This document shows, one piece after another, positions 134-6,834 of a stretch of 6,834 bases of DNA. Each line of letters begins with the position of its first letter. Position 1 is the first letter of the stretch. Location of the stretch: NCBI GenBank assembly GCA_024638355.1, contig JAHEKO010000207.1:1-6834 (forward strand), written 5' to 3'. A program made the position numbers and the translations under genes. Origin of the DNA: Acidobacteriota bacterium. Its GTDB lineage: Bacteria; Acidobacteriota; Thermoanaerobaculia; Multivoradales; JAHEKO01. The notes beneath the pieces are model-generated. The model did not search any database. It worked only from the letters and a program-made list of their open reading frames with translations, and was not told the DNA's origin.

Positions 134-742
134 ATGACACGACTTCTGGCTACGGCTCTGTCGCTCACGTTGGCCTGCGCGCTCTGGCCGTCCGGCTCGG
201 CAACCCTCGCTGCCGAAGGGGAGGCGCTCGAGGCCGCCGCGGAGTTCCGTTCGATCGCAAACAAGGAGGAGCGCTCGGCGGCGCTCTTCGTCGAAGCGGG
301 CCGGGTGCTGACCCACGCCCGATGCATCAACTGCCACCCGGCGGGCGACGAGCCTCTCCAGGGCGAGCTGGGGTCGCGCCACGAGCCGCCGGTGCGGCGC
401 GGCCGATCCGGGCTGGGGGTGGCCGGCATGGAGTGCAAGACCTGCCACCAGAAGGAGAACTTCGATCCGGGGCGGGTGCCGGGAGCGCCGGCGTGGCACC
501 TGGCGCCGCGCAAGATGGCCTGGGAGGGCCTGTCCCTGCCGGAGATCTGCGAGCAGCTGAAGGATCCGGCGCGGAACGGCAATCGCACGGTCGCCGACAT
601 CGTCGAGCACATGGCCGAGGACGCCCTGGTCGGCTGGGCTTGGACCCCCGGGGCCGGCCGCGAGCCGGCGCCCGGCGACCAGGAGACCTTCGGCGGTCTG
701 ATCGCCGCGTGGGCCAAGACCGGCGCGGTCTGCCCGAAGTAG
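134..742 (+). CDS. Secreted di-haem c-type cytochrome associated with IorAB-type molybdenum hydroxylase
   Basis: A 202-residue protein. Residues 1-27 look like a Sec signal peptide (MTR, then a hydrophobic run ending near ATLAA). Two haem c motifs follow: CINCH (C64, C67, H68) and CKTCH (C101, C104, H105), so it should act in the periplasm. Further conserved-looking blocks are HEPPVRRG (83-90), [16 protein letters not shown] (115-130), QLKDPARNG (141-149) and LVGWAWTPG (165-173). This pattern matches the small proteins annotated as isoquinoline 1-oxidoreductase subunit next to IorB. H122, M128, H159 and M160 are candidate distal haem ligands (inference). Its likely role is to take electrons from the molybdenum hydroxylase to the respiratory chain. 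The start is supported by AGAGGAG at 118-124, 9 nt upstream and inside the previous gene, so the two are probably one operon. Confidence 0.85.
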
Positions 743-778: not shown

Positions 779-1153
779 ATGCACGAGTACTCGATCGTTC
801 AGGCGCTGATCGCGCGAGTGGAAAGAGAGGCGGCGGCCCACAGCGCGACCGCCGTTCACCGGTTGCGCGTTCAGATCGGCGAGATGTCCGGCGTCGAGGT
901 GTCGCTGCTCGAGACCGCGTTCGAGCTCTTCCGGGAGCGCACGATCTGCGAGGGCGCGGTGTTGACGGTCGTACCCGTGGCTGCGACCTGGCAATGCCCG
1001 AAGTGCGCCACGGACCTGGCCCCGGGTGTCCCATTGCGCTGCCAGGCGTGCTCGACGCCCGCGCGCCTGGTGGCGGGCGACGAGATCGTGCTCGAGCGAA
1101 TCGAGATGGAGGTGGCCGACGCGGCGCCCGAACACCCCGCGGAGGCCGGATAA
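779..1153 (+). CDS. hypA: HypA, hydrogenase nickel insertion metallochaperone
   Basis: A 124-residue protein, within the usual HypA/HybF length (about 113-120) plus a short tail. It begins MHEYSI, so His2 and Glu3, the N-terminal nickel-binding residues of the family, are present. The zinc site is two CxxC pairs, CPKC (C73, C76) and CQAC (C88, C91). The [17 protein letters not shown] block (residues 33-49) is also typical. HypA works with HypB in the cytoplasm to deliver Ni2+ to the hydrogenase large-subunit precursor after the Fe(CN)2CO group is inserted. The gene lies 36 bp after the IorB-linked cytochrome and 2 nt before a nickel-transporter gene, and it faces the hydrogenase structural genes. 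No hypB-F is in the window. The ribosome site is weak (CGGGGC at 771-776). MHE fixes the start because both N-terminal residues are needed for nickel binding. Confidence 0.95.
1141..1145 (+). promoter_or_regulatory. Ribosome binding site (GGAGG) for the GTG-started transporter
   Basis: GGAGG lies inside the 3' end of hypA, 10 nt before the GTG at 1156. It decides the start: the frame is open far upstream (to 322), but that upstream part lies over the cytochrome and hypA frames and has no family-like content. The first membrane segment begins just after this GTG. Confidence 0.6.
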
Positions 1154-1155
1154 CC

Positions 1156-1908
1156 GTGGACTCCGCCTCGTCGCCTCTGATCCTGGGTGCGGCGTCGCTG
1201 GGGCTGGTGCACACGCTCATCGGGCCCGACCACTACCTGCCCTTTATCCTCGTCTCCAGGGCCCGCGGCTGGGGCATGGCCCGAACGCTGCGGCTGACTG
1301 TGGTCTGCGGCGCCGGGCACGTCGGGGCTTCGGCGCTGCTGGGGCTCTTCGGGGTGGCGGCCGGTCTGGCCATCGGCCGCATCGACGCCGTCGAGACGCT
1401 GCGCGGCGGCGTCGCGGCCTGGCTGCTGTTCGGATCCGGCCTCGCCTACGCCGCCTGGGGACTGCGCCAGGCGCTGCGCGATCGCCCTCACGAGCACTGG
1501 CATGAGCACGCCGACGGACAGGTGCACCGCCATCGCCACGTCCACCGCGGCGAGCACGCCCATCCCCACACCGCCGGCGCGGGTGCCGCGGCGCAAAGCG
1601 GCCGCTGGGGCTCCTGGGCGCTCTTCACCCTCTTCGTGGTCGGACCGTGCGAGCTGCTCGTGCCGCTCTTGATGGTCCCCGCCGCGCGCGGCGCCTGGCT
1701 CGACGCGGGACTGACCGCCCTCGCCTTCGCGCTCGCCACGGTTGGAACCATGGTGTCGGCGGTGGCGGCGGGCCGGCTCGGTCTGAACCGGCTGCTGAGG
1801 GCCGGCAGCGGCGGGCGCCGGTCTTCGAGGCTGCTCGAGCGGTACGGCCATGTCCTCACCGGGCTCGTGCTGGCGGCGTGCGGTGCGGCGATGTGGGCCG
1901 GGGCCTAG
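1156..1908 (+). CDS. Putative nickel (metal) transporter, NiCoT/UreH-like, with histidine-rich loop
   Basis: Starting from GTG at 1156 the protein has 250 residues and about six hydrophobic segments (near 8-33, 47-74, 85-107, 152-170, 176-196 and 228-249). The first carries HTLIGPDH (H19, D25, H26), which resembles the HxxxxDH nickel signature of NiCoT/UreH permeases but has one extra residue in the spacer. The second has GAGH (H55), also like that family. A hydrophilic loop (112-138) holds 11 histidines in 27 residues, suited to binding Ni2+ or other transition metals. Segment 4 contains GPCELLVPLL (161-170), a motif shared with broader TauE/SafE- and UreH-like proteins. The gene follows hypA by 2 nt and points at the hydrogenase operon, so nickel uptake for hydrogenase is the best reading. 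Metal specificity and transport direction are inference; another divalent metal or an export role is possible. Confidence 0.75.
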   Translation: MDSASSPLILGAASLGLVHTLIGPDHYLPFILVSRARGWGMARTLRLTVVCGAGHVGASALLGLFGVAAGLAIGRIDAVETLRGGVAAWLLFGSGLAYAAWGLRQALRDRPHEHWHEHADGQVHRHRHVHRGEHAHPHTAGAGAAAQSGRWGSWALFTLFVVGPCELLVPLLMVPAARGAWLDAGLTALAFALATVGTMVSAVAAGRLGLNRLLRAGSGGRRSSRLLERYGHVLTGLVLAACGAAMWAGA

Positions 1909-1937: not shown

Positions 1938-2324
1938 CTACTGCGGTCGGGCGACCGAGAGCAGGTACGCCACGAGATCCCAGGTCTGCCGCTCGCCGAG
2001 ATCCTTCCAACTCGCCATGGCGGTGCCGCGGCGGCCGTCCCGAATGACGAGGTAGATCTCCTGCGGCGTCGTGCGCTGGGGCCAGGAGGGGTCGGTGAAG
2101 TCCTGGGGTCGGCTCGAGAGGTTACGTCGAGCTCCCAGCCCGTTGGCCTCTTCGCCGTGACAGAGGGCGCAGTGCTCGAGGAAGATCTCGCGCCCGCGTT
2201 GCCGCGCGCCGTCCGAGGCGAGCCGAGCTTCCGGCACCTCCGGCGGGGGAGCGGGAGAGGTGTCGGCGCTACAGCCCCAGAGCGCGAGCGGCAGCGCTGC
2301 CAGCGCCGGCAGCAACCTCCTCAT
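1938..2324 (-). CDS. Lipoprotein monohaem cytochrome c encoded at the end of the hydrogenase operon
   Basis: A 128-residue protein. Residues 1-17 form a short basic-then-hydrophobic signal ending LWGC, so Cys18 is a probable lipidation site. A Pro/Ala/Glu linker (about 19-40) follows. A small class I cytochrome c domain comes next, with CALCH (C52, C55, H56), HGEEANGLG just after it, and M103 in TAMASW as the likely sixth haem ligand. The C-terminal helix has DLVAYLLSV, as in other cytochromes c. It should sit membrane-anchored in the periplasm. As the fifth gene of the hydrogenase operon it is a candidate electron acceptor for the hydrogenase, or a link to a terminal oxidase (inference). Its first 56 nt overlap the end of the protease gene in another frame. 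No later ATG exists that would keep the signal. The ribosome site is poor, although AGGAGG occurs as codons 2-3 (2316-2321). Confidence 0.85.
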   Translation of the reverse strand: MRRLLPALAALPLALWGCSADTSPAPPPEVPEARLASDGARQRGREIFLEHCALCHGEEANGLGARRNLSSRPQDFTDPSWPQRTTPQEIYLVIRDGRRGTAMASWKDLGERQTWDLVAYLLSVARPQ

Positions 2325-2823
2325 GATCTTCGCGTCGGCGGAGGGGGAAGCCCATTCGACCCGCCTCCTGCGCGATCTCCTCGACCAGTCCGTCCAGGGC
2401 GGCCTCCACCTCGCTCGATCGCCCGAGGCCGAGCTCGAGAGTGCGCGGCACGAGCCCGAGCAGCACCAGGCGGCGGGGCAGGGCGTCGAGCCAGCGCAGC
2501 GCGTCGAGCAGATCGGCGACGCCGACCTGGTGCACCGACAGGCGCTCGCGTACGGCCGGAGCCACCGAGCTTCCTTCGAGCCGGATTGCCGTCCCCGGTG
2601 GCTCGTCGGTACGGACCGCGTCGACCAGGATCGCGTCGTCGGTCTCCTGGAACTGGGTCAGGAGGGTCAGGCCGAGGGTCCCGCCGTCGAGCGCCCGGAC
2701 GGACTCGGGCAGCTCGTAGGAGCGCCGGAGGCGTTCGACGGCGGCGACTCCCAGCCCGTCGTCGCCGCACAGGACGTTCCCGAGGCCGAGGATCAGCAGC
2801 GGGCGTGGCTCTCGTCTCGTCAC
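2269..2823 (-). CDS. hyaD: Hydrogenase maturation endopeptidase (HyaD/HybD family)
   Basis: A 184-residue cytoplasmic protein with the family N-terminus LILGLGNVLCGDDGLG (10-25). The three residues that contact nickel in E. coli HybD (Glu16, Asp62, His93) correspond to D22, D68 (ILVDAVR) and H98 (LSVHQVGVADLL). These proteases check for nickel in the large-subunit precursor and then cut off its C-terminal tail. The natural substrate here is the large subunit encoded two genes upstream, which keeps a 15-residue tail after DPCMACGVH. The start is GTG at 2823, 13 nt after the cytochrome b stop; no other in-frame ATG/GTG/TTG lies closer to that stop. No strong ribosome site is seen, so translation probably depends on coupling. 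The last 56 nt overlap the lipoprotein cytochrome gene. Family-level function is secure. Confidence 0.93.
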   Translation of the reverse strand: MTRREPRPLLILGLGNVLCGDDGLGVAAVERLRRSYELPESVRALDGGTLGLTLLTQFQETDDAILVDAVRTDEPPGTAIRLEGSSVAPAVRERLSVHQVGVADLLDALRWLDALPRRLVLLGLVPRTLELGLGRSSEVEAALDGLVEEIAQEAGRMGFPLRRREDHEEVAAGAGSAAARALGL

Positions 2824-2836
2824 GCGGTTCGCCAGG

Positions 2837-3565
2837 CTAGGCCTCGGGGTGCTCGAATCGATATCCGGGCTTGATGATGTCCTCGCGCGGCACGAACTTG
2901 TGGCCCGAAAAGATCGACTCCACGGTGCCCGTGGCCTCCACCTGGGACATCAGGATGGCGCTGTAGACGTGATGCACGAAGAAGGCCCAGATTCCCCACA
3001 TCACCCCATGGTGAATCCAGCGTGCGGTCTGCAGTCCACCCAGAAAGGGAGCCAAGCCGGCGAAGATCCGCAACGGCGAGTCGACGTGGGCGCTGGTCCC
3101 GTACATGGTGAGGCCGGTGACGATCATGGCCAGGTAGGCCAGGAAGACGAACGCGTAGGTGAGGCCCGCGAGCGGGTTGTGGCCGACGAAGCCGGGCGGC
3201 ATCCGCATGCCGAACATGTAGTAGCGAAAGGTTCTGCGCATGGCGCGCCAGCGCGCCTTCGACGCCGGAACGAGCCGATGCCATCGCGAGTACCAGTTGC
3301 CCATGAACATCCAGGCGATCCGGGACAGCACCGACAGGGTGAAGACGATGGCGGTGTAGAAGTGGATCGCGCGTGCCCAGCCCATCAAGAAGTTGTCGCT
3401 GGCGGCTCCCGAGGCGATCAGCATCGGGTAGCCGATGTAGACGCCGGTGACCGAGAGCACCCATATGGCGATCGCGTTCAGCCAGTGGGTGACTCGCACC
3501 GGCCACTGCCAGACGTAGACGTTGTCCAGCTCGACCTCGCGGACGTGCTTCTTCCAGACCCTCAT
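2837..3565 (-). CDS. hyaC: Ni/Fe-hydrogenase b-type cytochrome subunit (HyaC/CybH family)
   Basis: A 242-residue integral membrane protein. The N-terminus VYVWQWPVRVTHWLNAIAIW (16-35) is the standard opening of this family. Four hydrophobic segments are seen near 29-48, 65-89, 131-152 and 187-207. Histidines in or near them are H27, H68 (AIHFYT), H129 (GHNPLAG), H185/H186 (WIHHGVMW) and H198/H199 (FFVHHVYS); this set would provide the ligands for two b haems. It anchors the small/large dimer to the periplasmic side of the inner membrane and passes electrons to the quinone pool. The start ATG at 3565 shares an ATGA overlap with the stop of the large-subunit gene, with AAGGTG just upstream (3568-3573). 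The frame stays open much further upstream (to 4288), but that part is antisense-like filler over the large-subunit gene. Confidence 0.95.
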   Translation of the reverse strand: MRVWKKHVREVELDNVYVWQWPVRVTHWLNAIAIWVLSVTGVYIGYPMLIASGAASDNFLMGWARAIHFYTAIVFTLSVLSRIAWMFMGNWYSRWHRLVPASKARWRAMRRTFRYYMFGMRMPPGFVGHNPLAGLTYAFVFLAYLAMIVTGLTMYGTSAHVDSPLRIFAGLAPFLGGLQTARWIHHGVMWGIWAFFVHHVYSAILMSQVEATGTVESIFSGHKFVPREDIIKPGYRFEHPEA

Positions 3566-5268: not shown

Positions 5269-6413
5269 TCGTCGGCTCCTTTCCCGGACGACGTTGCGGG
5301 TGCGGCCGGCTCCTCAGGTTCCGAGTCGTTGTTCTCGGCTCGGGCGTGCATGTAGCGCTTGCCGAGCTGCACGAAGCCGTGGGTCGCGAAGGCGGCCGCC
5401 ACGCCGGCGGTCGCCCAGAGGCCGACGCGGTCGATGCTCGAGTGGACGCCGAAGCCGGGGAAGCCCGCCATGTGCGAGTAGAAGGGCGTCATGGTGTCCC
5501 AGAAGTCGGGCTCGGCGCAGCCGATGCAGGGATGTCCGCAGCCGATCGGCCAATTGGTGCCGCTGTTCCAGCCCACGTTGGGGCAGTTCTGGAAGGTCAC
5601 CGGCCCCTTGCATCCCATCTTGTAGAGGCAGTAGCCGGTGCGGTGTCCCTCGTCGCCCCACGCTTCGACGTACTGGCCCGCATCGTAGTGAGCGCGCCGC
5701 TCGCAGTTGTCGTGAATCGACTTGCCGTACGCGAAGAGCGGCCGCCGGTAGCGATCCGTGGGCGGGAAGCGGTTGAAGGTCAGGTAGTAGACGATCACGC
5801 CCACGAGGTTCTCGGCGTTCGCCGGGCAGGCAGGCAGGTTGATCAGGTTCTTCGCTCGCGGCACCGCGTCGGCGACGGACAGCGCGCCCGTGGGGTTGGG
5901 CGCGGCGGCGGGCAGGCCACCGAACGCGGCGCAGGTGCCGATGGCGATCGTCGCCGCGGCGCCCTCGCACACCTCACGCGCGATGTCGAGCGCCGAGCGG
6001 CCGCCGATCGTGCAGTAGGCGCCGTTGGCGCCGGTCGGGATCGAGCCCTCGACGACTGCGATGTAGCCGCCCGGCTTGTCGCGAACGACTCCCGCCAGGG
6101 CCTCCTCGGCCTGGTGTCCCGCGGCGGCCATGATGGTCTCGTGGTAGTCCACCGACAGGGTATCGAGAACGATGTCGGCCACCGTGGGCCGCCCCGAGCG
6201 CAGAAACGACTCGGTGTTGCCGGCGCAGTCCTGGAACTCCAACCAGACCAGCGTCGGCTTCTCACGGGTCTGGATGGCCTCGGCGATGCGGGCGCCGGCC
6301 GCCTTCGGCAGCGCCAGCACCGTGGCCATCACGCCGCAGAAGCCGGCGAACTCCCGGCGCGTCACACCACGCCTCTCGAGCTCTTCGTTCAGCCAGCTCT
6401 GGCGCTCCTCCAT
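5265..6413 (-). CDS. hyaA: [NiFe] hydrogenase small (FeS) subunit with Tat signal and C-terminal anchor
   Basis: A 382-residue electron-transfer subunit. The N-terminus has a Tat signal (RRGVTRREFAGFCGVM; R19-R20, hydrophobic run to about 36), so the heterodimer is exported folded. Proximal-cluster region: C63, C161 (GTCAAFGG) and C196 (LPACP) are present, but the fourth ligand position is N66 (CAGN instead of CxxC). Distal cluster: H234, C237, C262, C268. Medial cluster: C277, C296, C299, with P289 in NWP as expected for a 3Fe-4S cluster, plus an unusual extra C292. The two additional cysteines of O2-tolerant six-cysteine enzymes are absent (G65 and G166 instead). A hydrophobic helix (about 329-349) anchors the C-terminus, followed by an acidic, Pro/Ala-rich tail. 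The start is supported by GGGAGG 5 nt upstream. It is the first gene of the operon. Confidence 0.97.
   Translation of the reverse strand: MEERQSWLNEELERRGVTRREFAGFCGVMATVLALPKAAGARIAEAIQTREKPTLVWLEFQDCAGNTESFLRSGRPTVADIVLDTLSVDYHETIMAAAGHQAEEALAGVVRDKPGGYIAVVEGSIPTGANGAYCTIGGRSALDIAREVCEGAAATIAIGTCAAFGGLPAAAPNPTGALSVADAVPRAKNLINLPACPANAENLVGVIVYYLTFNRFPPTDRYRRPLFAYGKSIHDNCERRAHYDAGQYVEAWGDEGHRTGYCLYKMGCKGPVTFQNCPNVGWNSGTNWPIGCGHPCIGCAEPDFWDTMTPFYSHMAGFPGFGVHSSIDRVGLWATAGVAAAFATHGFVQLGKRYMHARAENNDSEPEEPAAPATSSGKGADE
5276..5284 (-). promoter_or_regulatory. Strong ribosome binding site for the large subunit
   Basis: GGAAAGGAG on the minus strand lies 7 nt before the large-subunit ATG and inside the end of the small-subunit gene. 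With the ATGA overlap it indicates coupled but independently strong initiation for the two subunits, as expected for a 1:1 dimer. Confidence 0.7.
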
Positions 6414-6640: not shown

Positions 6641-6834
6641 ATGATCGACGCTGAACGGATGCTCGGCTCGCTGGTTCGCAACGCCATGCGCGGCGGGCGA
6701 AAGAGGGGCAAGCGCCGTCGCCGGGGGCCGGCCTCGATGCTGAGCCGGAGCGCGAAGGGCGGCCTGGCGCTGGGCGCCCTCGGCGTCGCCTTCGGCGTCT
6801 ACGAGCATCTGACCAAGCAGCAGGGGAGCGCGGG
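6641..6834 (+). CDS. N-terminal part of a TerB/DUF533 (YebE-like) family protein (partial, runs off the window)
   Basis: The frame is open from ATG at 6641 to the window end (64 codons). It begins MIDAERMLGSLVRNAM, followed by a very basic stretch (about residues 18-28, mostly Arg/Lys/Gly). A small-residue hydrophobic segment comes next (KGGLALGALGVAFGVYEHL, about 40-58). An N-terminal MIDAxRLLG opening, a basic or glycine-rich linker and a GALGVAxxxYEH helix are seen in many DUF533/tellurite-resistance TerB-like proteins, whose TerB domain would lie in the missing C-terminal part. Function is unknown for most of these. GCGGAG just before the ATG may serve as ribosome site. The gene is divergent from the hydrogenase operon and shares its intergenic region. 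The family call is from N-terminal resemblance only. Confidence 0.55.
   Translation, partial: MIDAERMLGSLVRNAMRGGRKRGKRRRRGPASMLSRSAKGGLALGALGVAFGVYEHLTKQQGSA

Follow-up and report, generated by a model that had tools for sequence, protein, structure and literature searches.

The window, as we call the whole stretch of DNA analysed here (6,834 nucleotides from an uncultured bacterium, likely one of the Acidobacteriota), holds a row of hydrogenase genes that runs from the small subunit through the large subunit, the cytochrome b and the protease to a cytochrome c (Table 1). The small subunit scores 421.2 bits with TIGR00391 (cut-off 179.5), and the protease scores below the cut-offs of the HyaD and HybD models themselves. 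Three further reading frames accompany these genes. Divergent from the hydrogenase genes, positions 134-742 (+) encode an apparently exported protein with two CxxCH motifs, which has no Pfam or NCBIfam match and is a possible dihaem electron carrier. Adjoining hypA, positions 1153-1908 (+) encode a hydrophobic protein with a His-rich loop, likewise without a match in Pfam or NCBIfam, which could be a nickel transporter. At 6641-6832 (+), a short ORF runs off the end of the window; its product is basic and has a hydrophobic stretch towards the C-terminus.

Table 1. Genes of the window and residues of the proximal-cluster site, with coordinates counted from the first nucleotide of the window
Feature	Position	Strand	Basis or remark
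HypA nickel chaperone, divergent strand	779..1153	+	TIGR00100 88.8 bits, cut-off 88.1; PF01155
Small c-type cytochrome, end of gene row	1938..2324	-	PF13442, PF00034
Hydrogenase maturation protease, HyaD/HybD-like	2269..2823	-	TIGR00072 133.8 bits, cut-off 47.45; PF01750
b-type cytochrome subunit of Ni/Fe-hydrogenase	2837..3565	-	TIGR02125 153.3 bits, cut-off 121.5; PF01292
[NiFe]-hydrogenase large subunit, 568 aa	3562..5268	-	RICGVC and DPCMAC motifs; profile matches
[NiFe]-hydrogenase small subunit, 382 aa	5265..6413	-	clean ORF; PF14720, PF01058, TIGR00391
Cys196, fourth proximal ligand position	5826..5828	-	invariant, 105/105 aligned rows
Cys161, third proximal ligand position	5931..5933	-	invariant, 105/105 aligned rows
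C63-A64-G65-N66, first two proximal-cluster ligand positions, CxxN in place of CxxC	6216..6227	-	codons and alignment
AAC codon of Asn66, column of the second proximal Cys	6216..6218	-	codons and alignment
GAC codon of Asp62	6228..6230	-	codons and alignment

The small subunit departs from the usual ligand set at one position of its proximal cluster. Codons 62-69 of the ORF read GAC TGC GCC GGC AAC ACC GAG TCG (D C A G N T E S), with codons 63-66 (6227-6216, minus strand; TGC GCC GGC AAC) specifying Cys-Ala-Gly-Asn. Five alignments with enzymes of known structure match N66 to the second Cys of the proximal CxxC. Where the window has CAGN, CTGC stands in the chains of D. vulgaris and A. vinosum; a Cys also occupies the N66 column in those of C. 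necator and E. coli, both of which are engineered variants. The initial annotation had described CAGN in a clean frame, at a proximal ligand position of a group 1 small subunit and with the other proximal cysteines intact, and codons and alignments bear this out on every point. The remaining clusters are standard, with C277, P289, C296 and C299 at the medial site and H234, C237, C262 and C268 at the distal site. A twin-arginine-type N-terminus (R19-R20-x-F22) forms an apparent export signal, and a predicted C-terminal helix (residues 327-362) would serve as a membrane anchor. The small subunit modelled alone with AlphaFold2 has a mean pLDDT of 73.6, falling to 67 over residues 61-70, so that the motif region is weak, and Foldseek matches the model to the [NiFe] small-subunit fold.

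Asn66 is shared widely among relatives. A protein search returned 7811 homologs, and Asn occupies column 66 in all 121 sequences formed by the window and the best 120 of those 7811. Of 59 related whole genomes, counting that of the window, 27 contain a match to the small-subunit protein. Leaving the window aside, there are 28 such matches, of which 23 carry CAGN (12) or CTGC or CTCC (11), the remaining five being two group 2a enzymes with CSGN (L026, L028), a group 1h enzyme with CDGD (L027) and two motif-free fragments (L025, L029). At the DNA level, an exact QDCxG[N/D][S/T]E-type pattern occurs in 13 of 297 same-phylum genomes (12 with Asn, one with Asp), and 30 of the 297 contain a QECT[G/C]C[S/T]E-type pattern, counts that refer to the pattern only, with hydrogenase identity unconfirmed; a reversed control pattern gave one match in the 297 genomes in the first scan and none in the second. 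When codons were read in relatives, 39 motif matches, in which one genome was entered twice (L007 and L030), comprised 30 Asn, 8 Asp and 1 Cys, and both Asn codons were in use (24 AAC and 6 AAT). Purifying selection acts on the gene (dN 0.084-0.213, dS 0.590-0.952; 8 pairs), and a change from AAC to TGC or TGT requires at least two base changes. Judged by these sequence comparisons, Asn66 is fixed in the close relatives examined and is an ordinary trait of its enzyme group. Genomes of the same order also hold several enzyme types, namely CAGN (L010), group 2a with CSGN (L026, L028) and group 1h with CDGD (L027), and one genome (G024) carries a CAGN enzyme (L010) together with a group 2a enzyme (L028).

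To place the enzyme among the hydrogenase groups, we used a scan of named species genomes in which 80 of 590 related loci were kept; column 66 among the 80 kept is Cys in 54, Asn in 18 and Asp in eight. The tree has 90 rows, 18 of 108 having been left out as near-copies (15 Cys, 2 Asn, 1 Asp), and was built without columns 58-70, so the motif cannot shape its topology. The window lies in a starred 32-row clade (SH-aLRT 97) with 25 Asn, seven Asp and no Cys, whose members include Geomonas (Asp), Nitrospirae (Asp), Chloroploca and Oscillochloris (Asp, Asn), and Acidobacteria and Bryobacterales (Asn, Asp); its nearest subclade is Asn throughout. Asn recurs elsewhere: in all seven rows of a separate, mostly Campylobacterota clade (two rows are titled Thiotrichales and 'bacterium'), which adjoins a Cys-bearing Leptolinea row (support 93); in all four group 2a rows; and in one long-branch Thermotogota row that neighbours the 1d clade, which is of Cys type (unstarred support, 92). 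At least six changes among the Asn, Asp and Cys labels are needed on the 90-row tree; the starred branches by themselves require two changes for Asn, as many for Asp and a single one for Cys, which does not fix the number of origins.

The window's enzyme likely belongs to group 1f, because its clade holds Geobacteraceae, Chloroflexales and Acidobacteria, which papers place in that group. This assignment was made through tree neighbours and the lineages named in papers, on a tree that holds no HydDB reference. In the extracts available of the papers concerned, group 1f of Roseiflexus, Geobacter and Frankia is described as having Asn or Asp for Cys (PMC5364354), and Chloroflexales (PMC6776052) and Acidobacteria (PMC5900883) are stated to carry group 1f. 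The features of that group are found here, with the second proximal Cys replaced by Asn or Asp in 32 of 32 clade rows, a medial site of three Cys and Pro, and a distal site of His and three Cys.

It is instructive to compare the enzyme with the systems it most resembles. First, the group 1f enzymes of Roseiflexus, Geobacter, Frankia and Acidobacterium share with it an Asn or Asp in place of the second proximal Cys, as well as standard medial and distal ligands, and Geomonas, Chloroflexales and Acidobacteria are its tree neighbours; the window differs in coming from an uncultured genome and in an extra Cys292 by the medial cluster, present in 22 of 32 clade rows. Second, the group 2a enzymes Huc and HupS have CxGN at the same column and three proximal Cys. 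Group 2a rows, on the other hand, have a leaderless start (L028), and Gln and Lys replace their distal His and medial Pro, respectively, whereas the window has the leader R19-R20-x-F22, an apparent export signal, together with His234 and Pro289. Third, group 1h also replaces the same Cys with an oxygen side chain. The initial annotation had pointed to an Asp at the proximal cluster of that group, and both PDB 5aa5 and the 1h relative L027, which has 36% identity to the window over residues 116-319, indeed read CDGD at this column; unlike the window, group 1h has Asp rather than Asn, and Cys at the medial Pro position. Fourth, Sulfurimonas, Sulfuricurvum and Poseidonibacter carry an ELQDCAGN- or ELSDCAGN-type motif with Asn at the column but form the separate Campylobacterota clade, with Val292 and, in Poseidonibacter, Gly134. 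We take the hydrogenases of these three genera to be group 1b, the group in which Wolinella hydrogenase is placed in the extract available of PMC4744846. Finally, the O2-tolerant membrane-bound hydrogenases of group 1d (HoxK, Hyd-1) share the overall fold, with 42-48% identity in the Foldseek rows. Their six-Cys proximal site, with CTCC and a second extra Cys, is absent from the window, which has Gly65, Asn66 and Gly166.

The exchange of Cys for Asn at this proximal position is already known and was published in 2014 and 2016. In a table of 2014, proximal position 2 is given as changed from Cys to Asn in N. punctiforme and from Cys to Asp in G. metalloreducens (PMC4070099), and in 2016 the swap was stated, in the portion available of PMC5364354, for groups 1f and 2a and for Methylacidimicrobium. 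The available portions of PMC4744846, PMC6501319, PMC10657181, PMC13111528 and PMC10792529 contain no mention that we found of Asn at this position, and a text search of the HydDB paper gave no hit either. The initial annotation had presented Asn66 as an oddity, and that reading falls away because Asn is the fixed residue of the subgroup relatives examined and had already been described. Its view that an altered ligand set is compatible with function has experimental backing: the C81N and C81D variants of the A. macleodii hydrogenase are functional in H2 evolution, in an engineered background in which the medial Pro and the distal His were also changed to Cys, C81N having been assayed for H2 evolution only, with activities that the authors describe as lowered (PMC4070099).

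What Asn66 does to the cluster is best approached through the following scheme. Three Cys would hold the proximal cluster, with Asn66 at the predicted fourth corner. With three thiolates instead of four, binding of the unique iron would be weak or lost altogether, leaving a [3Fe-4S] cluster in air, as in Huc, or else a labile [4Fe-4S] cluster to which Asn oxygen is a ligand, as reported for HupS. Either cluster type would be expected to have a higher potential beside the active site and so to bias the enzyme towards H2 uptake rather than evolution. Electrons would travel by way of the medial and distal clusters to the cytochrome b and presumably on to quinone. At the N66 column, the HucS chain (7uur) reads GGACSGNTMSF, and all three clusters of Huc were assigned as [3Fe-4S] from a 1.52 Å map and EPR (PMC10017518, in the extract available); the portion available of its main text does not mention Asn or asparagine, and the residue is taken here from the chain sequence. 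According to the same extract, [3Fe-4S] clusters generally lie ~250 mV higher, and the Huc authors tie this to the overpotential of the enzyme.

The strongest competitor, which we hold to be quite possible though short of probable, is a stable proximal [4Fe-4S] cluster, rather than [3Fe-4S], with Asn66 as its true fourth ligand. Such a cluster, ligated by one Asn and three Cys, is what the extract available of PMC6616624 gives for Nostoc HupS, and isolated HupS contains two [4Fe-4S] and one [3Fe-4S] by EPR (PMC4463661, likewise in extract). Furthermore, Asp stands at the column in seven of 32 clade rows and is reported as a ligand there in group 1h (PMC5364354 and PMC7174314, as far as their extracts go). 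Against a stable Asn-ligated [4Fe-4S] stands the complete Huc enzyme, in which the 1.52 Å map and the matching EPR give [3Fe-4S] with Asn at this very position (PMC10017518, in extract). One ligand set has thus been reported with both cluster types, perhaps by way of a labile fourth iron. The Huc and HupS precedents disagree and both belong to group 2a, with a distal Gln, so their transfer to group 1 is uncertain. Our search of the open-licence literature found no proximal-cluster spectroscopy of a group 1f enzyme, and no structure, EPR or potential for the window's enzyme or any member of group 1f. By inference from these precedents, we lean slightly towards a [3Fe-4S] or iron-labile proximal cluster in the window's enzyme under air.

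The surroundings of the site also differ between Asn-type and Cys-type enzymes. In the 105-row alignment, 58 of the 59 Cys-type rows carry Glu at position 62, and 35 of the 37 Asn-type rows carry Asp there. Within the group 1 tree set, Asn or Asp (Asx) rows and Cys rows differ at position 62 (Asp in 38/40 vs Glu in 44/45), at position 59 (Glu in 39/40 vs His in 41/45) and at position 64 (Ala in 33/40 vs Thr in 44/45). A co-variation test on independent pairs yielded one supported pair, with which significance is out of reach; the occurrence of Glu59, Asp62 and Ala64 with Asx66 in group 1 could reflect shared ancestry, coupling not being statistically shown. A Leptolinea small subunit (L050, 6001-6897) reads ELQDCAGC, the Glu-Asp-Ala set with Cys66, and may be an evolutionary intermediate or a reversal.

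A bolder proposal, which we regard as rather improbable, is that group 1 possesses a distinct Asx-type proximal site. In it, a linked set Glu59-Asp62-Ala64-Asx66 would replace His-Glu-Thr-Cys in group 1f and in the mostly Campylobacterota clade, and a [3Fe-4S] or iron-labile cluster would be tuned to one-way uptake of scarce H2, in parallel to Huc with its Asn and group 1h with its Asp. The initial annotation had looked to nearby residues for a substitute ligand, naming E68 and D62. The former is rejected, since Glu68 is equally invariant in Cys-type rows (59/59). The latter fares better in part, as Asp62 does track Asx66 within group 1. Asp62 itself might supply the ligand oxygen or relay protons to the cluster, with Asn66 merely clearing space for it, and the group 1 contrasts at positions 62 and 59 speak for this. 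We nevertheless consider it unlikely: Geomonas pairs Gly62 with Asp66, only a single independent pair is supported, and Asp62 is not needed for an Asn-type site, because the group 2a rows (L028, L112, L113) and HucS pair Ala62 with Asn66.

Alternatively, a spare cysteine, C134, C149 or C292, might take the place of the lost ligand and restore an ordinary four-Cys cluster, and these residues are indeed frequent in the clade (31/32, 30/32 and 22/32 rows, respectively). We consider this very unlikely. C134 is equally common in Cys-type rows (56/59), and Poseidonibacter has N66 yet carries Gly134 and Val292. A Cys is missing from position 149 in 10 of the 40 group 1 Asx rows; according to the weak model, C149 precedes the strand 154-158 that leads to C161, so it is probably far from the cluster. 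Position 292, in the medial-cluster loop, lacks Cys in 10 of the 32 clade rows, counting one gap. As for the individual residues, Cys149 (window 5967-5969), found in 30 of 32 clade rows, is mostly replaced by Ala in Cys-type rows (30/45). Cys292 (window 5538-5540) lies four residues before the medial Cys296 (WPIGCGHPCIGC); it is present in 121 of 121 close sequences (the window and the best 120 of 7811 homologs) vs 22 of 32 clade rows, and might touch the medial cluster. A sequencing error or a decaying gene, to which a fragmented assembly (696 contigs, 82.5% complete) might have pointed, is practically inconceivable, because the codon lies at least two bases from Cys, Asn is found in 121 of 121 sequences (the window and the best 120 of 7811), both Asn codons are used and the gene is under purifying selection, and the neighbouring hydrogenase genes are intact.

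The window very probably encodes an ordinary uptake [NiFe]-hydrogenase, predicted to be membrane-bound and likely of group 1f, in which a published Asn, common to the close relatives examined, stands at the fourth corner of a predicted three-Cys proximal cluster. Neither O2 tolerance nor high H2 affinity can be read from Asn66 alone. To our knowledge, the Campylobacterota with the same Asn are not known as scavengers of atmospheric H2. The group 1f enzyme of Acidobacterium ailaaui oxidises H2 to sub-atmospheric levels, as stated in the extract available of PMC6776052. An altered O2 tolerance, raised by the initial annotation, does not follow and is not adopted here, because the Asn-type Methylacidimicrobium enzyme was O2-sensitive in preliminary tests (PMC5364354, in extract). 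Taken on its own, the sequence finding adds one more uncultured member. The cluster type of a group 1 CxxN enzyme would bear on the disagreement between HupS and Huc, two reports that both concern group 2a, and would test whether the proximal cluster sets the H2 affinity or the direction of these enzymes.
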